DNA from: Candidatus Cryosericum hinesii | GTDB lineage: Bacteria > Caldisericota > Caldisericia > Cryosericales > Cryosericaceae | Direction: 5' to 3' | Assembly: GCF_003570985.1 (NCBI RefSeq) | Contig: NZ_QXIW01000031.1 | Span: forward strand, 62,001-126,000 | Length of the DNA stretch: 64,000 nt | In this document: piece by piece, positions 49,511 to 61,514 of the stretch | Numbering within the stretch: the stretch's first letter is position 1 | Layout: each line of letters begins with the position of its first letter | Notes under the pieces: generated by a model | Databases searched by the model: none | Seen by the model: only the letters and a program-made list of their open reading frames with translations | What the model was told of the DNA's origin: nothing | Translations under genes and position numbers: made by a program

Positions 49511-49560
49511 TTGACACATTGGAGCGTCGGCATATATTATATCGGTTGATAACGATATAA
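49511..49560 (+). promoter_or_regulatory. Promoter and operator of the arsR-arsD-arsA operon
   Basis: TTGACA at 49511-49516 with TATATT (spacer 16) forms a strong promoter. The perfect inverted repeat TTATATCG-N8-CGATATAA (49537-49560) overlaps the -10 and start region. This is where the ArsR encoded 14 bp downstream would repress its own operon. Confidence 0.7.
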
Positions 49561-49573
49561 TCGGAGAATGGCG

Positions 49574-49996
49574 ATGCAGACGACTAGTGCAGGGAAGATT
49601 AACAGGATTTGGGTTGCAAAGGCGCTGGGGGACCAGACAAGAGCACGCATTGTCGGGCTCCTGGGTGTACGTGCCTTGTGTGTCTGTGAGCTGAAAGTTG
49701 CTTTGAGTCTGTCGCAGGCGACCGTCTCGGATCATCTGCGCGTTCTGGTTGAGGCGGGGCTCCTGATGACGTCCAAGCGGAGCTACTGGACGTTGTATAC
49801 AATTCGCGACGATTTGCCGTCTGGGATCCTCGGCTTTATGTCTCTTCTCACGGCCCAGGTTCATGCCGAGTTTCCCGACGACCGGAACCGCTTGACAGAT
49901 ACTCCTGCGTTTGTCTGTAATGTGATTGCCAAGCCAATGCCCGCTGGACGGCACCAAGCTGAGCAGCACTCTCGAAAGCCCAGTACAAGCAAGTAG
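49574..49996 (+). CDS. arsR: ArsR-family metalloid-responsive repressor 1 (140 aa)
   Basis: A winged-helix ArsR protein. The metal-sensing CVC motif lies in ALCVCELKVAL (Cys36, Cys38), followed by the recognition helix SQATVSDHLRVLVEAGLL. The ATG at 49574 lies eight bases after CGGAG, while an ATG at 49568 is too close. Its release by arsenite or antimonite would free the operator at 49537-49560. It starts an operon with arsD and two arsA genes. Confidence 0.85.
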   Translation: MQTTSAGKINRIWVAKALGDQTRARIVGLLGVRALCVCELKVALSLSQATVSDHLRVLVEAGLLMTSKRSYWTLYTIRDDLPSGILGFMSLLTAQVHAEFPDDRNRLTDTPAFVCNVIAKPMPAGRHQAEQHSRKPSTSK

Positions 49997-50029: not shown

Positions 50030-50344
50030 TTGAAAATCGAGTTCTATGAACCACCTATGTGTTGCACGACGGGGCTGTGTGGACCGTCTGTAGATGAACA
50101 TCTTGTTCAGCTCAATGAAGATCTCAAACGTCTTCAAGGGGAGGAGCCTGGCATGATCGTTGAACGCTATGCGATCAATCAGCAGCCATTCAAGTTTCGC
50201 GACAATGCAGACGTCTATAAGCTAGTAACGGGCAATGGCAAAAAGATCCTTCCGGTGACTACTGTCGACGGCAAGGTTCTCAAGACTATGAGCTACCCAT
50301 CGTACGATGAGATGAAAATTGCACTGACTGGAGGAATAGCATGA
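50030..50344 (+). CDS. arsD: ArsD, metallochaperone for the arsenite pump ATPase (104 aa)
   Basis: The TTG start follows GGAGGTCACG. It opens with IEFYEPPMCCTTGLCGPSVD, which has the three metalloid-binding cysteines (Cys11, Cys12, Cys17) of ArsD. The thioredoxin-like core ends with ILPVTTVDGKVLKTMSYPSY. ArsD carries As(III) or Sb(III) to ArsA. The gene overlaps arsA1 by 4 bp. Confidence 0.9.
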   Translation: MKIEFYEPPMCCTTGLCGPSVDEHLVQLNEDLKRLQGEEPGMIVERYAINQQPFKFRDNADVYKLVTGNGKKILPVTTVDGKVLKTMSYPSYDEMKIALTGGIA

Positions 50345-51228
50345 ATCCTGAGTACGTCTTCTTCTCAGGCAAGGGCGGTGTCGGCAAGACGTCTATGGCA
50401 TGCACGGCGGCGGTCTACCATGCAGACAACGGCAAGAAGACCCTCATCGTCACAACAGACCCGGCATCGAACCTGGCCGACGTATTCGAGCAGCCCATAG
50501 GCCACCACGTAACGCCCATTACCGGTGTTCCCAATCTGTGGGCCATGGAAATCGACCCGGACGAAGCCACCCGTGAGTACAAGGAGCGGTCATTGGCCCC
50601 CATGCGGGGTCTCTTTGACGACGAAATGTTGAAGGTTGTCGAAGAGCAGTTGAGCGGTCCGTGTACAGAAGAAATGGCTTCATTCGACAAGTTCACCGAT
50701 TTCATGGAGGACGACAATTGGGATGTCATCATCTTTGATACGGCGCCAACTGGCCATACGTTGCGACTTCTGGAGCTTCCGGTCGAGTGGAGCAAGCACA
50801 TCAAAGATAGTGCGGAGGGCAGTGGTCAGACATGCATGGGACCCGTCGCCCTGATTCAGGACAGCAAGAAGAAGTACGACGATGCTGTGGCGCGACTTCG
50901 TGACACAAGCCGAACGCAGTTCATCTTCGTCATGCAGGCAGAACAGACATCTCTTGAGGAGACGTCACGTTCGGTCACTGAGCTGGCAGCAATAGGCGTG
51001 ACGACGTCGAGAATCATCGTGAACGGGCTTGTCCCTGAGGCTGAGACGGTGAATCCGTTCTTCCGGAAACGACGCGACATGCAGCTGACATACCTGGAGC
51101 GCGCCAAGCAATCGTATGCGGGGATACCGGTACAGACGATGGAGTTGCTCGACAGTGAGATCAAGGGAGTGGAGATGTTCCGTAAAGTCGCTCCAATGTT
51201 GTTTCAGAGGGGGGCGAGCAATGGCTGA
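50341..51228 (+). CDS. arsA: ArsA half-size ATPase, A1-like (295 aa)
   Basis: The Walker A motif is GKGGVGKTS (residues 10-18) and the ArsA signature DTAPTGHTLRLLELP lies at residues 133-147. Two cysteines match the metalloid site of the A1 half of E. coli ArsA: Cys108 (SGPCTEEMASF, like Cys113) and Cys165 (GQTCMGPVA, like Cys172). It is half the length of the E. coli protein. It energises an efflux pump with the downstream A2-like partner. It overlaps that gene by 8 bp. Confidence 0.9.
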   Translation: MNPEYVFFSGKGGVGKTSMACTAAVYHADNGKKTLIVTTDPASNLADVFEQPIGHHVTPITGVPNLWAMEIDPDEATREYKERSLAPMRGLFDDEMLKVVEEQLSGPCTEEMASFDKFTDFMEDDNWDVIIFDTAPTGHTLRLLELPVEWSKHIKDSAEGSGQTCMGPVALIQDSKKKYDDAVARLRDTSRTQFIFVMQAEQTSLEETSRSVTELAAIGVTTSRIIVNGLVPEAETVNPFFRKRRDMQLTYLERAKQSYAGIPVQTMELLDSEIKGVEMFRKVAPMLFQRGASNG

Positions 51229-52126
51229 CATCGAGAGTTTGTTGCGTCCAAGTGCAAAGGGTGCCAGGCAGGTATTCTTCGCGGGCAAGGGTGGCGTGGG
51301 CAAGACGACCATGGCATGTCTGGCCGCGGTGCATGCTGCCAGACGCGGGTACCGAACTCTGCTCCTCACTACGGATCCTGCGGCACATACTGGCAGCGTG
51401 CTTGGGAAAAAAGTGACGGATCAGGTAGAAGTCATCGACGGCGTCCCGGGGTTGTTTGCCGCCAAGATCGACCAGAAGCAGGCAACAGAGGACTACAAGA
51501 AGGGTATTCTCGACGATGCGCGAGCCAAGTTCGATGAGGACACAATTCGGACGATGACCGAAGAACTGGCCTCCCCCTGCACTGAGGAGATGGCTTCGTT
51601 CCAGCGCTTCATTGACCTTTCGAGTACTCCAGGGTTCGATGTTATCGTCTTCGATACGGCGCCGACGGGTCACACGCTGAGATTGCTCGAGCTGCCTATG
51701 GATTGGAGTGAACAGATCAAGCTCAAGGCCACTGGCGGCACTGAGACATTGTCTGCTGGAGACCGCCAACAGAAGGACCGGTTTGACCGGGCAGTCACGA
51801 CGATGCGGGATCCCGATCTGACGACGTTCAGTTTCGTCATGTATCCCGAGAGCACCCCAATTCTTGAGGCATCCCGCGCATCGGAGGAACTGGCGGGCAT
51901 CGGTGTGGCAACGCAGCTTGTCGTGGCGAACCTGCTGATTGCGGAGGAACAGGCGACGACACCCTTCTTCCAGAAGCGGAGACAGCTTCAGTTGGGATAC
52001 CTGGAAGAGATAAAGCGACGCTTTGCAGAAGCTGCATTGCTACGGGTTCCAATGATGGACAGCGACATTCGTGGTATCGACAAGTTGGACATGCTGGACA
52101 AAATCGTATTTGAGGGAGTTGCATAA
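51221..52126 (+). CDS. arsA: ArsA half-size ATPase, A2-like (301 aa)
   Basis: The Walker A motif is GKGGVGKTT (residues 22-30) and the signature DTAPTGHTLRLLELP is at residues 145-159. It has the Cys of SPCTEEMASF (Cys120, equivalent to Cys422 of the E. coli A2 half) but no second one where A1 has Cys165 (the segment reads GGTETLSAG). The ATG at 51221 lies inside the end of the A1 gene after GAGGGGGGCGAGCA. It pairs with the A1-like protein. Confidence 0.9.
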   Translation: MADIESLLRPSAKGARQVFFAGKGGVGKTTMACLAAVHAARRGYRTLLLTTDPAAHTGSVLGKKVTDQVEVIDGVPGLFAAKIDQKQATEDYKKGILDDARAKFDEDTIRTMTEELASPCTEEMASFQRFIDLSSTPGFDVIVFDTAPTGHTLRLLELPMDWSEQIKLKATGGTETLSAGDRQQKDRFDRAVTTMRDPDLTTFSFVMYPESTPILEASRASEELAGIGVATQLVVANLLIAEEQATTPFFQKRRQLQLGYLEEIKRRFAEAALLRVPMMDSDIRGIDKLDMLDKIVFEGVA

Positions 52127-52506
52127 TGGCAGAGAATGTTGTTCAGATTGATGTCTACGGAATCTGGGACGAGGCTCCTGCAGCCTCGTCGTGCGGCTGT
52201 GGCGGGGGTGGGTGTGGCCCCAACGCTGCGCCAACGCCGACAATGGGCGAGATGTTCGAGAGTCTGAGGACGTCCCTCGGTGCGAGCGATATAGTAGATC
52301 AATGCTCGCTGAGGTTCATAGATGTCATGAAGGACAGCGACTCTCAGGTCAATGAGGTACGTCATCTGGCCGAAAGCGGGTACACTCTGCCACTGACAGC
52401 GTTGAACAGCAAGTGGTCGTTCTATGGTGGCATCTCAAATGATACATTCTACCTTAAGATCAAGGAACTGACCGGCAAGAAGACTGGAGTCGAGACTCGA
52501 CGCTGA
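52126..52506 (+). CDS. Cys-rich protein, possible metalloid carrier, unrecognised (126 aa)
   Basis: It overlaps the ArsA2 gene by one base (TAATG), so it is part of the operon. Residues 21-31 hold a SSCGCGGGGCGP cluster with three cysteines. The remainder looks like a thioredoxin-like fold (LRFIDVMKD, then GYTLPLTALNSKWSFYGGIS), with one more Cys near 60. The build resembles ArsD (N-terminal cysteines on a thioredoxin-like core) without matching its sequence. A second metallochaperone is one option. I do not recognise it as a named family. Confidence 0.65.
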   Translation: MAENVVQIDVYGIWDEAPAASSCGCGGGGCGPNAAPTPTMGEMFESLRTSLGASDIVDQCSLRFIDVMKDSDSQVNEVRHLAESGYTLPLTALNSKWSFYGGISNDTFYLKIKELTGKKTGVETRR

Positions 52507-52799
52507 CGCACTGACACAGCAACGACAACGTAAGCTGTATCGGATCTGATGGAGATGGGCAGCCTGCGTTGTTCGTGAGTCCTATGTTGTCATCCAGAGT
52601 GTTCGTCGAGGGGCTCGATCAGCTTGGGGAATCTACTTTGTCAAGCAGTCAAGAACACAGCAGATGGTCAACCAGTCTGGCGGAGGAAGCGTCTGGCAAT
52701 GCGTCGACGCTGTGAGGATTGGGAGACTGGACACCAAGGTTACTGGTCCGTCATCCAACGTGTCCGGATGTGTTCCGGAGCGCGAATCGAGGAGGAGAC

Positions 52800-53030
52800 A
52801 TGAACGTATTCTACTGCGACGCATGCCGCACAAAATTTGAGACGGAGGGTACCAGGACTGAGTGGATCGACCGCACGTACGGACCCTGCATACGGTGGAC
52901 CGCAGTATGTCCAACCTGTGGAGCCGAGTGTAGGCTTGCAGAGACTGTCCACGCACAGAGTGGAGGCAGCGGTATCGGCGGATCCATGGACTGGGGCGGA
53001 GGATCGGGGTGCGGGCCGTCCTGCAGGTGA
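52800..53030 (+). CDS. Small zinc-ribbon protein with C-terminal cysteines (76 aa)
   Basis: The ATG at 52800 follows GAGGAGGAGAC. Two zinc-ribbon knuckles are CDAC (residues 6-9) and CPTC (residues 38-41), and the Gly-rich end finishes GGGSGCGPSCR with two further cysteines. It ends in an ATGA overlap with the 28-aa membrane peptide. The neighbourhood suggests a metal-related role. No family name can be given. Confidence 0.65.
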   Translation: MNVFYCDACRTKFETEGTRTEWIDRTYGPCIRWTAVCPTCGAECRLAETVHAQSGGSGIGGSMDWGGGSGCGPSCR

Positions 53031-53116
53031 TGAAACTGAAACTCCTGGCAACCTTCGCGGGTATTGTCGGATTCAGTATCATCATCGTGGGATATCTCTT
53101 TAACTGGATCTTCTAG
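53030..53116 (+). CDS. 28-aa membrane peptide resembling a permease C-terminus
   Basis: The ATG overlaps the stop of the zinc-ribbon gene (ATGA). The product is MKLKLLATFAGIVGFSII followed by IVGYLFNWIF. It matches the last helix of the ArsP-type permease at 56246-57196, which ends LKPRLLATFIGVV then GVGILIVGYFFNWVL. A terminator with the same core as the permease terminator follows. It is either a remnant of a permease or a functional small membrane protein. Confidence 0.6.
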   Translation: MKLKLLATFAGIVGFSIIIVGYLFNWIF

Positions 53117-53140
53117 ACCACTGAGCAGGAACGACCAGTA

Positions 53141-53171
53141 CAGACCCCGGCCTCGTCGAGGCCGGGGTCTG
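53141..53171. terminator. Terminator after the 28-aa peptide
   Basis: CAGACCCCGGCCTCG and CGAGGCCGGGGTCTG form a 15-bp perfect stem, followed by TTTCTT. The core GGCCTCGtCGAGGCC recurs at 57231-57255 and 59287-59313. Confidence 0.8.
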
Positions 53172-53199
53172 TTTCTTCCTGGTGCAGCTGTGTCTGGTT

Positions 53200-53466
53200 C
53201 TAGCGTGCGTGTTCCTCGATCAACCCGACGACCTCGGTGAAGTCGATGTCATCGGCTTTGGCAGTCTCAAGCGTGGGAACGTAGTCGGCACCCCAGCCGC
53301 GACGCGTCTACACGGCGTCTTGCAGCTTCCTGAACTGCCGCTCGTGGTACAGGCGGAGGTCCGCCAACTTCTCCTTGGTCGATCTGCCGGAGGGGTTATA
53401 GCCGACCTCATTTCACAACTGCGTATCATAGCGGTCTTCCGGTGACAGGCACTCCACTTCCGTCAT
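53200..53466 (-). pseudogene. Decayed C-terminus of an aldehyde ferredoxin oxidoreductase
   Basis: One minus-strand frame aligns with the last 90 residues of the 724-aa protein at 59340-61514: LSPEDRYDTQL, then LADLRLYHERQFRKLQDAV and RRGWGADYVPTLETAKADD, ending FTEVVGLIEEHAR. The frame holds two internal stops, a TGA at 53413-53415 and a TAG at 53308-53310, so it is dead. The beginning of the gene is missing: it meets the end of the ArsR-like gene near 53466. Confidence 0.8.
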
Positions 53467-53809
53467 CGGCGTCGTGCGGTTCGTCCCGGCCGGGGTCGAT
53501 GCCCAGGGACTTCTTCCTGTTTGTCAGGACACACCGCTCTGCACACGAAGCCAAGTCGAGAATGCATGGGACCGTAAGCGAGTAGCGGATTTGCGTGCCG
53601 ATCCTCATGGCGTCTACGAGGCCTGCTTCCTTGAGGAGGGAGAGGTGCTTGGACGCTACGGACTTCTCGACCTCTGCCTCGGCAGCCAGTTCACAGACGC
53701 ACCAAGGTCTGGTGGCAAGCCGAGTGAGCAAGAACACGCGCAACGGGTGAGCCATGGCCTTGAACATATGTGCTGTCAGTTCGCAGTGTATTCTCTCTTG
53801 TTCAGTCAT
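53426..53809 (-). CDS. ArsR-family metalloid-responsive repressor 2 (127 aa)
   Basis: A winged-helix ArsR protein with the sensing motif WCVCELAAEAEV (Cys37, Cys39), then SVASKHLSLLKEAGLV as the recognition helix and further C-terminal cysteines (SCAERC). The ATG at 53809 is used since the upstream extension runs through the operator. No ribosome site is visible, and it may be leaderless. Its last dozen codons run into the oxidoreductase remnant, so the native C-terminus may have been replaced. It is divergent from the split permease genes. Confidence 0.8.
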   Translation of the reverse strand: MTEQERIHCELTAHMFKAMAHPLRVFLLTRLATRPWCVCELAAEAEVEKSVASKHLSLLKEAGLVDAMRIGTQIRYSLTVPCILDLASCAERCVLTNRKKSLGIDPGRDEPHDADDGSGVPVTGRPL

Positions 53810-53914: not shown

Positions 53915-54397
53915 GTGGAGAACTTGATTCTGTATGGTGTCGTCGCTGTCCTGTTAGTGTTCTCAATGATCAGAGACAGGGCCAAAACAAAGAAAGCCCT
54001 GATGAAGGGACTCAAGGCGTTTGAGGGCATCCTGTCGCAGTTCCTGATTGTTTTGATGCTTGTCGCGATCGTTCTGGCTGTGTTCGATCCTGCCACAATC
54101 TCGCGGCTGCTCGGTGCCGGCTCGGGTTTCATGGGAATCATGATTGCCTCACTTGTCGGGGCTATCACACTCATTCCTGGATTTGTGGCGTTCCCCGCAG
54201 CGGCAGAGCTGCTCCGGAATGGTGCAGGGGTAACACAGATAGCGGCGTTCGTGTCCTCGCTCATGATGGTTGGCATCGTGACCCTGCCTCTGGAAATCAG
54301 GTACTTTGGCAAGAAAGCGGCCATTGGTCGCAACACCCTTGCCTTCGCGTTTTCCATTGTAGCTGCGCTGTTTGTCGGATGGATGGTAGCAAGATGA
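53915..54397 (+). CDS. Permease, N-terminal half (ArsP/DUF318 type) (160 aa)
   Basis: The GTG start follows GGAGAGGTACAT. There are four predicted membrane helices with the permease motif GSGFMGIMIASLVGAITLIP and GFVAFPAAAELL. It is half the length of family proteins such as the 316-aa one at 56246-57196. The second half is made by the next gene, with a 4-bp overlap. Export of a metalloid or organic metal compound is likely from the family and the ArsR context. Confidence 0.75.
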   Translation: MENLILYGVVAVLLVFSMIRDRAKTKKALMKGLKAFEGILSQFLIVLMLVAIVLAVFDPATISRLLGAGSGFMGIMIASLVGAITLIPGFVAFPAAAELLRNGAGVTQIAAFVSSLMMVGIVTLPLEIRYFGKKAAIGRNTLAFAFSIVAALFVGWMVAR

Positions 54398-54936
54398 CGC
54401 TCAACAGCTTCCTGAAGAAATATCGTGCCACTCTCATGATGGTCGTCATCTTCGTGGCGTTCTTGTTCCTGTTTCCCTCCAAAGCTGCTTGGGCAGAGAA
54501 GTCCCTCTTTGATCAGTTGAGGACCATGTTCCTCGTGATGCCTCCGATTTTCGTCCTGTTGGGACTGCTGGATGTCTGGGTTCCACGAGAGACACTCATC
54601 AGGTACATGGGCAAAGGGTCTGGGCTAAAAGGGACTTCGCTGGGTATTGTCCTGGGTGCTGTTGCTGCAGGGCCTCTGTATGCGGCATTTCCGGTGGCGG
54701 CCGTCCTCATGGACAAGGGAGCCAGCTTCATGAACGTGCTCGTATTCATCGGAGCGTGGTCCACCCTGAAGATACCGATGTTTCTGTTCGAGATGCAGTC
54801 GCTTGGGGCGCGTTTTGCGGTCGCGCGGTTCCTTGTCGATGTCCCCGGCATCTTCCTCATTGCATTCATTTTGAACAAGTTGCTGACCGCGGAGGACGTT
54901 GAGAAGATCTACTCTGCGTCGCACGATGCCAAGTGA
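54394..54936 (+). CDS. Permease, C-terminal half (ArsP/DUF318 type) (180 aa)
   Basis: The ATG at 54394 forms an ATGA overlap with the preceding half-permease. It has about four or five membrane helices and contains the family segments YMGKGSGLKGTSLGIVLGAV and GPLYAAFPVAAVLMDKGAS. With the N-terminal half it would rebuild a full permease of 340 residues. The next gene is a DGC protein, 99 bp downstream. Confidence 0.75.
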   Translation: MTLNSFLKKYRATLMMVVIFVAFLFLFPSKAAWAEKSLFDQLRTMFLVMPPIFVLLGLLDVWVPRETLIRYMGKGSGLKGTSLGIVLGAVAAGPLYAAFPVAAVLMDKGASFMNVLVFIGAWSTLKIPMFLFEMQSLGARFAVARFLVDVPGIFLIAFILNKLLTAEDVEKIYSASHDAK

Positions 54937-55811: not shown

Positions 55812-56138
55812 ATGATCCAGCGTGTGCCGGTTAGTGGAGTACAGGACATAGGTACGGACTGGAACTCCGTATGCGAGGAGCAGGCGAAGTTTGTGTCAGT
55901 TCTGGTGGGCCTGCAGCGCATCAAGATTTTGAGGTTGCTGCGTGGCGGAGAACTGTGTGTCTGCGACATCGAGCACGCGCTCGGTATCCCACAGAACCTG
56001 GTTTCGCATCACTTGAGGGTCCTGCGCGAGGCTGGGCTTGTCTCTGCTCGCAAGGAGGGGCAGTTCGTGTACTACTCGCGCGTCGAGGACCGCATTCTTC
56101 AGTTGACACAAGCCTTGACAGGATTGCTGTCAACATAG
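55812..56138 (+). CDS. ArsR-family metalloid-responsive repressor 3 (108 aa)
   Basis: The protein has LLRGGELCVCDIEHALGIP with the sensor cysteines at 49 and 51, then QNLVSHHLRVLREAGLVSAR as DNA-binding helix. It is the same CVC class as the other two but differs in sequence and operator. It is followed by a hairpin with a T-run and then the full-length permease. Confidence 0.85.
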   Translation: MIQRVPVSGVQDIGTDWNSVCEEQAKFVSVLVGLQRIKILRLLRGGELCVCDIEHALGIPQNLVSHHLRVLREAGLVSARKEGQFVYYSRVEDRILQLTQALTGLLST

Positions 56139-56245: not shown

Positions 56246-57196
56246 ATGCTGACACTGTTTGCTGACTGGTTCACCTACACGCTTTTGCGCCTGCCAAAGG
56301 GGCGCCTGATAACGGAAGCCATTCACTTCTTCGTGTACGACATCCCTAAAATCTACCTGCTCCTCGTCGTTATCGTGTTTGTGGTTGCTATGCTCAGAAC
56401 CTGGATTCCCGCCGAAAAGATCAAACGTCTACTCGTTCACCGGCACCAGTTCGTCGGCAATGTCCTTGCTGCTTCTCTGGGCATTTTCACCCCCTTCTGC
56501 ACGTGCTCTGCCATTCCGATGTTCATTGGATTCGTGGAGTCCGGCGTACCGCTTGGGGTGACATTCTCGTTTCTGGTGGCAAGCCCTATGATCAACGAGG
56601 TCGCGATGGTGCTGCTATGGGGACTGTTTGGAGCCAGGGTCGCCTTGCTCTATGTGGGTGTGGGGCTCCTTATCGCGATTGTGTCGGGTGTCATCATCAC
56701 TCGGCTTCACATGGAGAAGTACGTTGAGGATTATGTCTACATGATCAAGGTCGGCGCTGCTGCAGGGGATGCTCCCATGACCTTCAAGGATCGCGTCGTT
56801 GCCAGCTGGAGATACGTGGGCGAGATCTTCCGCAAAGTGGCTCCATGGGTGGCGGTCGGCGTTGCCATCGGTGCATTCATCCATGGGTACGCTCCCGAGA
56901 ATTTCCTGGCCAGATACGCAGGTCGTGACAATCCCTTTGCGGTTCTCATCGCCGTTGCGATCGGTATTCCTCTCTATTCGAATGCCGAGGGCGTCATTCC
57001 TGTCGTTCAGGCGTTGTGGGCCAAGGGTCTGCCTCTAGGGACAACGCTGGCTTTCATGATGGCTGTCACCGGACTCTCGATGCCGGAGATGATTATCCTG
57101 CGCCGCGTTCTCAAGCCAAGGCTGCTTGCAACATTCATCGGTGTCGTGGGCGTCGGTATTCTCATCGTGGGGTATTTCTTCAACTGGGTCCTGTAA
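56246..57196 (+). CDS. Full-length permease (ArsP/DUF318 type) (316 aa)
   Basis: An eight-helix permease with the conserved FTPFCTCSAIPMFIGFVESG (two Cys of the family's active segment), VASPMINEVAMVLL and GIPLYSNAEGVIPVVQAL. Relatives export trivalent organoarsenicals or are linked to other metals. CGGAGGTTGCT precedes the ATG. Its last 44 codons were copied recently to 59119-59253, with one base change in 135. It is controlled by the ArsR just upstream. Confidence 0.85.
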   Translation: MLTLFADWFTYTLLRLPKGRLITEAIHFFVYDIPKIYLLLVVIVFVVAMLRTWIPAEKIKRLLVHRHQFVGNVLAASLGIFTPFCTCSAIPMFIGFVESGVPLGVTFSFLVASPMINEVAMVLLWGLFGARVALLYVGVGLLIAIVSGVIITRLHMEKYVEDYVYMIKVGAAAGDAPMTFKDRVVASWRYVGEIFRKVAPWVAVGVAIGAFIHGYAPENFLARYAGRDNPFAVLIAVAIGIPLYSNAEGVIPVVQALWAKGLPLGTTLAFMMAVTGLSMPEMIILRRVLKPRLLATFIGVVGVGILIVGYFFNWVL

Positions 57197-57230
57197 CCGT
57201 CCGCAGGACACCCAATTTGGATCAGCAAGA

Positions 57231-57255
57231 AGCCCGGCCTCGTCGAGGCCGGGCT
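57231..57255. terminator. Terminator after the permease
   Basis: AGCCCGGCCTCG and CGAGGCCGGGCT form a 12-bp perfect stem. The same core follows the other two permease tails. Confidence 0.75.
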
Positions 57256-57257
57256 CT

Positions 57258-57345
57258 GAGCCGTTCCACAGCAGCTTGCACGATCCCATGAGTGAGAAAC
57301 AGGTTCGGAATAGGGAGAGAGCTTCAGCCTTGTCGGCAATCGTCG
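57258..57345 (-). pseudogene. Small internal remnant of an aldehyde ferredoxin oxidoreductase
   Basis: A minus-strand frame reads ADKAEALSLFRTCFSLMG then SCKLLWNGSE. It aligns with ADKAEALSFFPLFRTWFS then LMGLCKLPWNDSE in the protein at 59340-61514, with three codons lost. Only about 30 codons are left, next to the permease terminator. Confidence 0.7.
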
Positions 57346-57355
57346 GAAGTTCGCC

Positions 57356-57736
57356 CTACGCCGGTTTGCTCTCTGACTGCTCTCTTTCCGAGACCGCCTC
57401 TCGTATCTTGTTCACCACCTGTTCCGTATTCATATTTCGTATTTCGATGCCGATGTGCTTGTCTCTTGCAAATCCCGCACTATCAAATGCATCTCTGTAC
57501 ATCTTCTTCTGCATCGCAGGATCGCAGGCAGCAACATAGAGTTCATCGATCTCAGCCCCTTTGAGCAATTCCCTGAGATATCGGTCTCCATCTTCTGCAC
57601 AGAGCTGTGGGTGGACTCCTACCCATTCGAATATATTCTCTCTCCTCAAGGTGTTCAAGACTTCAAACGTGTCCATCGCTTGAAATGATGGACATGTCCC
57701 CTGGCACACGCACAACAGTAATCCTTTTTTACTCAT
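57356..57736 (-). CDS. Heterodisulfide reductase subunit A-like N-terminal domain protein (126 aa)
   Basis: It has LLCVCQGTCPSF at the start and GVHPQLCAEDGDRYLRELL, then YVAACDPAMQKKMYRDAF. This matches the first domain of HdrA-like proteins, where cysteines hold an Fe-S cluster. The flavin and ferredoxin domains of full HdrA are absent. GGGAGGAAATAGGT precedes the ATG. It follows the ferredoxin gene by 2 bp. DNA here is clearly more AT-rich than the neighbours. Confidence 0.8.
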   Translation of the reverse strand: MSKKGLLLCVCQGTCPSFQAMDTFEVLNTLRRENIFEWVGVHPQLCAEDGDRYLRELLKGAEIDELYVAACDPAMQKKMYRDAFDSAGFARDKHIGIEIRNMNTEQVVNKIREAVSEREQSESKPA

Positions 57737-57738
57737 AC

Positions 57739-57948
57739 CTATTTCCTCCCCTCTCCAAAATAGCTAATAGCCTTGTTATCACAAATCTTCGAACATCCTC
57801 GGCAGAATTCAACACAGTTGTCTGGATTTACTACTTCCGGATATCCGTCTTTATCAATTGCATAAACGCCATGGGAACAGAAGTTTACACATTCGTGACA
57901 CTGAATGCATTTATCCTTATCTACTATAGGATACCAATTTTTCGCCAT
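57739..57948 (-). CDS. Ferredoxin with two 4Fe-4S clusters (69 aa)
   Basis: The cysteine sets are CIQCHECVNFC and CVEFCRGCSKIC, giving room for two clusters. The ATG at 57948 sits eight bases after GAGG; the GTG at 57957 overlaps the ribosome site. It lies between the NifX-like and HdrA-like genes and probably passes electrons to or from them. Confidence 0.85.
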   Translation of the reverse strand: MAKNWYPIVDKDKCIQCHECVNFCSHGVYAIDKDGYPEVVNPDNCVEFCRGCSKICDNKAISYFGEGRK

Positions 57949-57953
57949 TCCAC

Positions 57954-58289
57954 TCACCTCGCTTCAATGTTTTGGAAAGTCTTCAACATATCTGCAATTC
58001 TGCCCGCACTTCCCTCCTGCACCAATACATTGCCCTTAAGAAGCTCGTTCGCTATGTCTGCATTCTCAACAGACGATACAACCAATTTCTCTGCCTTCGT
58101 CTCTTTAATGAACTCAGCAAACGCTACTGCATCTACTTCTTGCTTGAAAAAGACATTTTCCACGTTTGTCACTTTCTTGAGCTTACCGCCTTCGATCTCC
58201 ACAACAGTGATATATTCCGATTGAGAAATGTTACTGCCCAGATCACTGTTTAATCCAAGGTGGTTTTTTGATGCGAAAGCAATAATCAT
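57954..58289 (-). CDS. NifX/NifB-like dinitrogenase cofactor-type domain protein (111 aa)
   Basis: The fold of the iron-molybdenum cofactor (NifX/NafY) domain is shown by IAFASKNHLGLNSDLG at the start, YITVVEIEGGKLKKV and the later KAEKLVVSSVENADIANELL. Such proteins bind Fe-S or molybdenum-type clusters. No other nif gene is present. It is first in a three-gene operon with ferredoxin and the HdrA-like protein. The 22-bp motif shared with the MoaD-like gene lies 30 bp upstream. Confidence 0.8.
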   Translation of the reverse strand: MIIAFASKNHLGLNSDLGSNISQSEYITVVEIEGGKLKKVTNVENVFFKQEVDAVAFAEFIKETKAEKLVVSSVENADIANELLKGNVLVQEGSAGRIADMLKTFQNIEAR

Positions 58290-59118: not shown

Positions 59119-59253
59119 GCTGTCACTGGACTCTCGATGCCGGAGATGATTATCCTGCGCCGCGTTCTCAAGCCAAGGCTGCTTGCAACATTCATCGGTG
59201 TCGTGGGCGTCGGTATTCTCATCGTGGGGTATTTCTTCAACTGGGTCCTGTAA
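59119..59253 (+). pseudogene. Duplicated permease C-terminus (44 codons)
   Basis: The 135 bp repeat 57062-57196 with one base change, including the stop. A longer reading frame from 58774 runs antisense through the OsmC gene before reaching it, and is not a gene. There is no start codon for the copied part. Confidence 0.85.
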
Positions 59254-59286
59254 CTGTAGACGATGCGCCTCTCCTGAACAGCAAAG

Positions 59287-59313
59287 AAGCCCGGCCTCGT
59301 CGAGGCCGGGCTT
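59287..59313. terminator. Terminator, third copy of the GGCCTCG core
   Basis: AAGCCCGGCCTCG and CGAGGCCGGGCTT form a 13-bp perfect stem. It serves the minus-strand oxidoreductase and was probably copied together with the permease tail. Confidence 0.75.
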
Positions 59314-59339
59314 TCTGATGTGGCAGATCTGGCTGAAGA

Positions 59340-61514
59340 CTATGCTTTGTGTGTGTGCTTCTCGATGAGGTCCACAAGTTCGGGGAAGTCGATACCGTCC
59401 GCTTTCACTGTCTCCAGCGTGGGGACTCCGTCGGCATCCCAGCCGCGCCGTGCATACACCGCGTCCTGAAGCTGGCGGTATTGCGACTCGCGGTATTGGC
59501 GCAGGGCTGCCATCTTCTGCTGCAGGCTCATACCCGCGATGTCCACCTTTGCGGCTTCAACCAATTGCTTGTCATAGCGTTCCTGCCGGGAAAGGTATTC
59601 CTCCTCGGTGACAGGTCCCATGCCACGGTACGGCATCCAGTCGTCTTTGCGCGTCCCCTGTCCCATGCGCAGGTTGAACAGGCGCTGGAAATCGTACACA
59701 CGCTTGCTCTGGGCGAGGAGCCCATCGAGGTCGAGTGCATGACCGGTCATGCCCGTGTACAGCAGAAGGTAGTTCTCAACGTGTTCGGGGATCCTGGCGG
59801 CCTCGATACCAGTGTAGCGGTCGTGGTTGTCCCTGGGCTCCGAGTCGTTCCACGGCAGCTTGCACAGTCCCATGAGCGAGAACCAGGTACGGAAGAGCGG
59901 GAAGAAGGACAGGGCCTCAGCCTTGTCGGCAAACGTGGGCAGCTGGCCCTTGACCTGGTCCATGAAGATGAGCCACGCCTCGTCGTGCTGTGGTCCCTTG
60001 GACGCCATGGCGTACCCGCCCTGCTGGGCCAGCGAGTCCTTGCAGTTGTACTCGGAGACTTCCATACCTTTGACTTCCATACCGATGTCATTCACGAACT
60101 GAGCGTCAGCATGGTACTCTTCGATGAACAGTTTCTTCAGACGGTGGATACCAAGCCCGGCGACCTTGCCGAAGCCGCGACCTTCGCCGATCTGGTGGAT
60201 GAGTTCCAGCGCGTCCATGTCACTGCCAAAGTGGAGGTCGAGACCGCCGGTGATCTCCTTCGTAAGGATGCCGTTCTCGTAACATTCCATCAAGAAGGCC
60301 AGTAATGTGGAGACCGCCACCAGGTCGAGGCCGTAGTAGTCGCAGTAGAAATTGGCCTCCAGGACAAAGTGAGGGTCGAAGCTGCCGGTATTTGTTCCCA
60401 GGCCGCCGATCGTCTCATATTCCGGGCCGTCGACCAGGACCTTCTGTCCTTTGAGGGGGCCGGTGAGCAGTTCGAAGTTGTCCACGCCGTGGGCACACGA
60501 CATGGAGCAGCCAAGCCAGCAGCCGTCCGGCATGCCCTGGGAAATCAGCCCAAGCCAGACATCGCTCTTGATCTTCTCTGTCCGCGGGTCCGACCCGAAC
60601 TTGTAGTTCATGACGGGCAGCACGTCGCACTTGTCCAGGATCTCGACGGTGTTGCCGGTGCCGATCTCGCGCATGCGGCTGTGGGTATGGTCAAGGGTGA
60701 GAATCTCCTTGTTCATGCGCCCGCCGGCGAGCTTGATAGGCTCCATGTCGACTGGGCAGTTGAGCGTTGGCGTCGTCCCGCTGAAATGGATGACGACAGC
60801 CCTGAGCCCCTTGTCTCTGAAGACGGTGCCGGGTCCGCCGCGAGCGAGCTGCTTGATACGGGTATGTTTCCGCTTGGCGTCCCAGTAGCTGAGATTGATG
60901 AGACCCAGCAGCGAGTGGTCGGCACCCTCGCCAGAGGTGGCCACGCTGACATTCTTGCGGTCGTCATCACCATCGGCGTACATGGCGTGCAGGACCTCTG
61001 GCAGGTCGTAGCTGTTGGTCGGTTCATCTGGAGCTGTTTCGATCGTAACGAAGCCCTTGTTTCCGTCGATGACAAGCATGACGTCTTGAGCAGCCTTGCC
61101 CTGGATCTCGATGCAGTCAAAGCCGGAGAACTTCATGAAAGGGGCGAAGAAGCCGCCACCATTATTGTCGACAGGAACACCGGTCTCAGGAGAGATGGTA
61201 ACGGAGTGCGTCTTGCCGGAGCCAGGATACTGCGTCAGGCCGGTCAGTGGTCCGGCCGTGAAGATGAGTTCGTTCTCAGGATCATTCCAGTGCGTCGCAG
61301 GTTTGACGGCCTGCCACAGATAGTACATGCCATAACCACGCCCGCCCGTGAACTTCTCTCGTACCATGGGCTCGATGGCGCGTTCCTCGATGGTGTTTGT
61401 GGTCAAGTCGACGTACAGTCGCCGATCGGTGTAGCCGGCGTGCACACCTCCCGGCGTAAATGAATACGTCGCCAGGACCTTGTGTGCCTGTCGCATTTCC
61501 TCGATGGTCTTCAC
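59340..61514 (-). CDS. Aldehyde ferredoxin oxidoreductase family protein, long form (724 aa)
   Basis: GTG start after GGGAGGTAGAAG. The N-terminal part has GGRGYGMYYLWQAV and GPLTGLTQYPGSGKTH for the tungstopterin cofactor. The Fe-S cysteines are in DGCWLGCSMSCAHGVDN, with a further Cys in EYNCKDSLAQQGG. It is more than 100 residues longer than AorB at the C-terminus, where a helical tail ends in VDLIEKHTHKA. Fragments of close relatives lie at 53200-53466 and 57258-57345. No Fe-S or FAD partner is adjacent. Its substrate is unknown. Confidence 0.85.
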   Translation of the reverse strand: MKTIEEMRQAHKVLATYSFTPGGVHAGYTDRRLYVDLTTNTIEERAIEPMVREKFTGGRGYGMYYLWQAVKPATHWNDPENELIFTAGPLTGLTQYPGSGKTHSVTISPETGVPVDNNGGGFFAPFMKFSGFDCIEIQGKAAQDVMLVIDGNKGFVTIETAPDEPTNSYDLPEVLHAMYADGDDDRKNVSVATSGEGADHSLLGLINLSYWDAKRKHTRIKQLARGGPGTVFRDKGLRAVVIHFSGTTPTLNCPVDMEPIKLAGGRMNKEILTLDHTHSRMREIGTGNTVEILDKCDVLPVMNYKFGSDPRTEKIKSDVWLGLISQGMPDGCWLGCSMSCAHGVDNFELLTGPLKGQKVLVDGPEYETIGGLGTNTGSFDPHFVLEANFYCDYYGLDLVAVSTLLAFLMECYENGILTKEITGGLDLHFGSDMDALELIHQIGEGRGFGKVAGLGIHRLKKLFIEEYHADAQFVNDIGMEVKGMEVSEYNCKDSLAQQGGYAMASKGPQHDEAWLIFMDQVKGQLPTFADKAEALSFFPLFRTWFSLMGLCKLPWNDSEPRDNHDRYTGIEAARIPEHVENYLLLYTGMTGHALDLDGLLAQSKRVYDFQRLFNLRMGQGTRKDDWMPYRGMGPVTEEEYLSRQERYDKQLVEAAKVDIAGMSLQQKMAALRQYRESQYRQLQDAVYARRGWDADGVPTLETVKADGIDFPELVDLIEKHTHKA

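Follow-up and report, generated by a model that had tools for sequence, protein, structure and literature searches.

ArsD and ArsA are textbook components of arsenic resistance. In Escherichia coli, the As(III)-site cysteines of ArsA are Cys113, Cys172 and Cys422 (PMC2963123), and in Alkaliphilus metalliredigens a split ArsA1/ArsA2 pair is described with Acr3 (Fu et al. 2010, as cited in PMC2963123). Redox genes, coding for thioredoxin, CcdA or redox-active disulfide protein 2, are already known from ars operons (PMC2963123), and a 2026 inventory of prokaryotic selenoproteins (PMC13188914) includes the thioredoxin-like families SaoT, HUIPC and Sec.1/Sec.2, with no entry described as an ArsA partner. 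A literature search retrieved no paper on Cryosericum and arsenic, and nothing naming the protein family considered here.

The window, a 64,000-nucleotide stretch from a Cryosericum genome (1.94 Mb, 80% complete), contains an operon with the order arsR-arsD-arsA1-arsA2, followed by a last gene for a protein of 126 residues, hereafter P126 (Table 1). The start codon of P126 and the stop codon of arsA2 share one base (TAATG), which agrees with an earlier note on this DNA reporting a Cys-rich open reading frame overlapping arsA. The window ArsD harbors Cys 11, 12 and 17 (numbered from its TTG start), lacks the C-terminal Cys pairs, and is a genuine ArsD as judged by its family model. A C-terminal Cys tail is found, by alignment, in none of six ArsD proteins from P126-linked clusters, versus four of seven other ArsD proteins. 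Cys108 and Cys165 of ArsA1 align with Cys113 and Cys172 of the E. coli ATPase, and Cys120 of ArsA2 with Cys422, so that arsD, arsA1 and arsA2 together constitute a split-ArsA ATPase module in which three of the three As(III)-site cysteines are kept. The full-length arsP gene further downstream is the candidate outlet of the island.

Table 1. Features of the ars island, in window coordinates
Feature	Position	Strand	Evidence or remark
Sigma-70-like promoter match upstream of arsR	49511..49540	+	11/12 consensus positions; pattern match only
arsR (ArsR/SmtB repressor)	49568..49996	+	NF033788, 69.1 bits, above cut-off
arsD metallochaperone	50030..50344	+	NF033727 above cut-off; 3ktb/3mwh/3kgk
arsA1, first half of split ArsA	50341..51228	+	1f48, E 2e-98
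arsA2, second half of split ArsA	51221..52126	+	1f48, E 2.4e-84
P126, thioredoxin-fold, last gene of arsRDA1A2 module	52126..52506	+	126 aa
76-aa zinc-ribbon protein	52800..53030	+	good Shine-Dalgarno
Remnant, last 29 codons of arsP permease gene	53024..53110	+	tblastn 62% identity to ArsP residues 287-315
Strong terminator-like hairpin, 15 pairs	53140..53172	+	
Remnant, last 87 codons of aldehyde-ferredoxin-oxidoreductase-like gene	53209..53469	-	tblastn 57% identity, E 9e-28
Second ArsR-family regulator, upstream of arsP	55812..56138	+	PF01022, 63.8 bits
arsP-type permease, full-length permease gene of island	56246..57196	+	PF03773, 257.9 bits

P126 contains cysteines at positions 23, 25, 30 and 60, the first three forming the motif C23-G-C25-x4-C30 (residues 21-32, SSCGCGGGGCGP). 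Among the 26 members of the family aligned here, C23 is kept in 25, C25 in 24 and C30 in all, C60 is not conserved, and P89 (at the cis-Pro position) and G101 are invariant. Given this conservation of C23, C25 and C30 across a divergent family, the Cys cluster is beyond chance. Searches against Pfam and NCBIfam returned no family above cut-off, either for P126 or for the zinc-ribbon protein encoded downstream (best E 0.049, FmdB-type and other zinc ribbons included); both remain unrecognised proteins, as first described.

The thioredoxin-like core that had been proposed for P126 was recovered by profile. The 26-member profile matches best, among solved structures, 1xg8 (SA0798; E 6.6e-6), followed by the thioredoxins 1fo5 (E 7.9e-5) and 1nho (E 1.4e-4), and 11 of the 26 members have Pfam matches to DUF1462 (PF07315; best 1.4e-6), the window P126 having none. 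Comparison with the ArsD profile (hhalign) gives a probability of 95.3% (E 2e-8) over 95 columns and the full length, and still 91% when every Cys is masked, versus at most 5.9% in 30 column-shuffles, 31.5% with reversed rows, and at most 1.4% against eleven other local families; the ArsA-linked P126 rows alone reach only 79%. The small thioredoxin family Trx80 scores 40%, over the C-terminal half only, and the identification of P126 with Trx80 was rejected, the two being different families. An AlphaFold model built with six close rows is poor (pLDDT 44), with an order of elements compatible with a thioredoxin fold; at this pLDDT its Foldseek matches are meaningless and were discarded. By these profile comparisons the family is a thioredoxin-fold one, with DUF1462/SA0798 and ArsD as its nearest relatives. 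Because ArsD also has a thioredoxin fold, the match is not a proof of membership, and the ArsD model NF033727 matches neither the window P126 nor any of the 26 members at E 0.1. The resemblance thus indicates a common fold, and likely a remote kinship, rather than membership of ArsD.

Within Cryosericum, P126 is found in 7 of 15 genomes, each time immediately 3' of arsA2. Eight of the 15 carry arsA2, and the only one without P126 (G011) has arsRDA1A2 divergent from acr3, with neither P126 nor arsP at the locus; a gap in the draft genome was rejected as the cause, an oxidoreductase gene lying about 40 bases after arsA2. The P126-bearing genomes have arsP, on the same island where the contig is long enough, with no acr3 near their P126 clusters, and lack acr3-family genes altogether, except for G006, which is 10% contaminated and contains a contig identical to the window, and is therefore not a fully independent case. 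Could P126 then be an adapter linking split ArsA to some permease that is not Acr3, namely ArsP in Cryosericum? The contrast between the acr3 cluster and the P126 clusters would fit such a role; however, it comes from a single genome, arsP also occurs in Cryosericum without P126, acr3, arsDA1A2 and P126 stand together in one Bacillota cluster (L182, in G544), and two near-identical Bacillota clusters have no adjoining permease gene. An adapter function therefore appears improbable.

Outside Cryosericum, the P126 profile found no relative in 332 genomes of other phyla (only two of which have Spo0A), and relatives in 45 of 398 Bacillota genomes. In the hosts of the five best of these (G420, G633, G764, G724 and G544; E 6e-39 to 5e-28), P126 lies directly 3' of arsA1-arsA2, with arsR and arsD upstream; the loci of G420 and G633 are near-identical, and, like in the window, one base is common to the arsA2 stop and the P126 start of G764 and G724. 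In a sixth case (G617) a transposase gene separates arsA2 from P126, which seems to have lost its N-terminus. Among 80 Bacillota genomes searched for split arsA, chosen partly for having P126 relatives, seven carry it, and six of these seven have P126 behind arsA2; the remaining genome, G422, lacks P126 but encodes a different small Cys protein, and also has acr3. In the ArsA2 tree, the six P126-linked Bacillota sequences and those of Cryosericum form one clade (support 98), G422 falling outside, and in the P126 tree the ArsA-linked members share one clade (98/95) with three relatives whose genes lie in other surroundings. The earlier note had placed P126 with the ars genes and had named gene neighbourhood in other genomes as a check; this check, in which a lack of co-occurrence with arsA would have spoken against the note, finds P126 beside split arsA in two phyla, and by that adjacency it is a conserved part of the arsDA1A2 module. 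Searches of plasmids with P126, its relative from G026, a Bacillota relative and the zinc-ribbon protein gave no match, and searches of viral contigs for P126 gave none.

More distant relatives occur in other surroundings. In G554, which has a fused arsA, the order is arsDA-arsR-P126like-acr3, and members of the wider family lie near acr3 (L164, L165, L175), near arsP or arsR (L158, L170), near a flavin disulfide reductase-like (dihydrolipoamide-dehydrogenase-like) gene (L156, L171), next to Trx80/CcdA-type genes in some cases, or in housekeeping surroundings (L160, L161, L166, L169, L172, L177). Taken together, these surroundings show a family that is not confined to ars genes.

At the position of the first motif Cys, 12 of the 30 loci read have an in-frame TGA (L148, L149, L152, L155, L157, L162, L163, L164, L166, L169, L172 and L175), eight of them belonging to the wider family, and four being ArsA-linked (G420, G633, G544 and G617, that is four of six, two of which are near-identical). 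In these four the family sequence continues for about 80-90 residues past the TGA, as it does in the wider-family loci, and in all eight TGA loci included in the alignment the TGA is aligned with window C23. SelB scores above cut-off in G420, G633 and G544 (three of the three ArsA-linked TGA hosts tested), in the Cys-form hosts G764 and G724 as well, and neither in six Cryosericum genomes tested, which are incomplete drafts, nor in G026. Hairpins form after the TGA upon SECIS folding, but do not clearly stand out from those of shuffles (z 0.18 to -1.15). As judged by in-frame TGA and continuing sequence, this would be a selenocysteine/cysteine family, of which the window P126 is a Cys form, in a group without detected Sec machinery, subject to draft incompleteness. 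As a side observation, relatives of P126 also lie behind gyrA, or beside miaB-, ribD- and ligA/gatC-like genes (G026 L022:451-810 and others), several of them with Sec, and so make up a branch that lies outside ars clusters.

Selenocysteine at this position raises the possibility that P126 is a thiol/selenol oxidoreductase, whose Cys(Sec)-x-Cys would reduce disulfides or free As(III)-thiol adducts, the cysteines of ArsD and ArsA staying reduced with no delivery of arsenite. The thioredoxin fold with its invariant P89 and G101, the two thioredoxins among the closest solved relatives, the TGA itself and the reductase-like and Trx80/CcdA-type neighbors of relatives are all consistent with such an activity. 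On the other hand, the CxxC active site of thioredoxin is absent, replaced by the C-x-C of a C-x-C...C motif, the invariant Cys is the third one, dispensable for dithiol exchange, and P126 is more similar to ArsD than to Trx80. This redox function is plausible, if somewhat doubtful.

A further proposal of the earlier note was that P126 and the downstream 76-residue zinc-ribbon protein, said to end in CGPSC, together form a metallochaperone relay. The latter protein is indeed encoded in the window, with CxxC (6,9), CPTC (37,40) and a C-terminal end CGPSCR; its gene follows that of P126 with no terminator-like site found in between, and Cys clusters are present in both proteins. However, its ars-island form is restricted to the window locus, the identical copy in G006, and G012, where it lies among ArsR-like pieces on a contig without arsA; it stands 3' of P126 only in the window and the identical contig, and is missing from most P126 clusters. 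Most Cryosericum genomes carry a paralogue, which retains the paired CxxC, at a same conserved site beside a LigT-like gene and away from ars genes, and the genome of the window has one too (G000:C21, 64% identity). Since remnants of arsP and of an oxidoreductase gene lie just downstream, a full arsP was lost there, and the zinc-ribbon gene, bordering its leftover 3' end, sits at the break. The zinc-ribbon protein is probably not part of the ars module and the relay is most improbable: what survives of it is P126, through its conservation in the arsDA1A2 module and its ArsD likeness, and what is not supported is the zinc-ribbon protein as second member, given its paralogue away from ars genes.

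Other traces of rearrangement were noted on the island. The 3' end of arsP occurs three times in the window (53024-53469, 57122-57258 and 59179-59521), two of the three being followed by the reversed 3' end of an oxidoreductase gene, and recombination at this arsP/oxidoreductase junction seems to make the island longer or shorter. Two overlapping half-size permease genes (53915-54397 and 54379-54936), beside a DGC-domain gene, match the same half of ArsP_1 (profile positions 19-133 and 16-148) and perhaps encode the two halves of a single permease; G006, G009, G010 and G012 have related pairs. Beside the arsP copies, the minus strand (57356-58289) carries 126-aa, ferredoxin and FeMo-cofactor-domain-like genes, also present in G009 and G012, and some Cryosericum islands (L025, L026, L066) encode a CcdA/ArsG-like membrane protein and a SaoE-like permease.

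The family of P126, its fold class, its conserved Cys or Sec, its place in the operon and its linkage to split arsA in two phyla are established. Since members of its family, some of them with Sec, stand behind the same split ATPase genes in two phyla, P126 probably functions within the arsenic-handling machinery. Metal binding, transfer, direction of transfer and choice of permease are predictions from sequence. The function that we tentatively favor, and that falls just short of probable, is an ArsD-like As(III) carrier serving split ArsA beside ArsD. P126 would be a cytosolic protein, the fourth of the arsD-arsA1-arsA2-P126 module, binding As(III), or else Sb(III), through the three thiols of Cys23, Cys25 and Cys30, which lie between strand 1 and helix 1 like the Cys-Cys-x4-Cys of ArsD; in Sec relatives, the first ligand would be a selenolate. 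Together with ArsD or by way of it, P126 would hand the metalloid on to the As(III) site that ArsA1 (Cys108, Cys165) and ArsA2 (Cys120) form jointly, and the ATPase would then drive the permease, ArsP in most Cryosericum clusters and Acr3 in one Bacillota cluster. This carrier is favored because the third Cys is invariant and because of the ArsD likeness, which makes a chaperone role reasonable. It is weakened by the presence of ArsD in every P126 cluster, a second chaperone being partly duplicate, by the lower score of the ArsA-linked rows alone against ArsD (79%), and by Sec at the first position, which is more typical of redox catalysts than of metal carriers; wider-family members that adjoin the flavin disulfide reductase-like gene or housekeeping genes suit a redox role too.

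A further soluble partner accompanying split ArsA in two phyla, in Sec and Cys forms, would mean an added step in arsenite handling by anaerobes, and a function open to test for a (seleno)protein family so far uncharacterised. The bolder proposal, that this unnamed Sec/Cys family is the regular partner of one split-ArsA lineage and binds arsenite at a site of selenolate and thiolate, arsenic being passed to the ATPase via an As-Se bond in some anaerobes, is rather unlikely. P126 might also explain the missing C-terminal Cys pairs in ArsD of P126 clusters, and it provides a simple marker gene for the arsRDA1A2-P126 type of ars operon.

How does P126 compare with the described systems? The window resembles A. 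metalliredigens in having two single-domain ArsA proteins in place of a fused ATPase. Like the redox proteins of ars operons, among which Trx80 (thioredoxin-like, 80 aa) is also encoded in Cryosericum clusters, P126 is small, thioredoxin-fold and encoded with ars genes, but it belongs to a separate family, unnamed and unclaimed by any Pfam or NCBIfam model. SaoT, HUIPC and Sec.1/Sec.2 are likewise small proteins of thioredoxin fold with Sec or Cys, and some of them occur in a metal or metalloid context; SaoT and HUIPC, however, have UxxC and not UxC, the HUIPC model matches three P126 members only (best E 0.014), and a place for P126 in the SaoT/SAO system was rejected, no member matching the SaoT model. 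'Sec.2' (PF13192, UxC), judged by its description only, could be a member of the wider P126 family. DUF1462/YuzD provides the best sequence match to a solved structure, but 1xg8 has a CxxC, whose second Cys aligns at the C30 position. Finally, P126 differs from ArsD by a C-x-C-x4-C motif that is similar, and not identical, to the vicinal Cys-Cys-x4-Cys, by falling below the ArsD model, by Sec in its relatives, and by its position behind arsA2 in coexistence with a true ArsD; it shares with ArsD a thioredoxin-like fold matched at 95% by profile, three thiols between strand 1 and helix 1, a third Cys five positions after the second, and the same operon.
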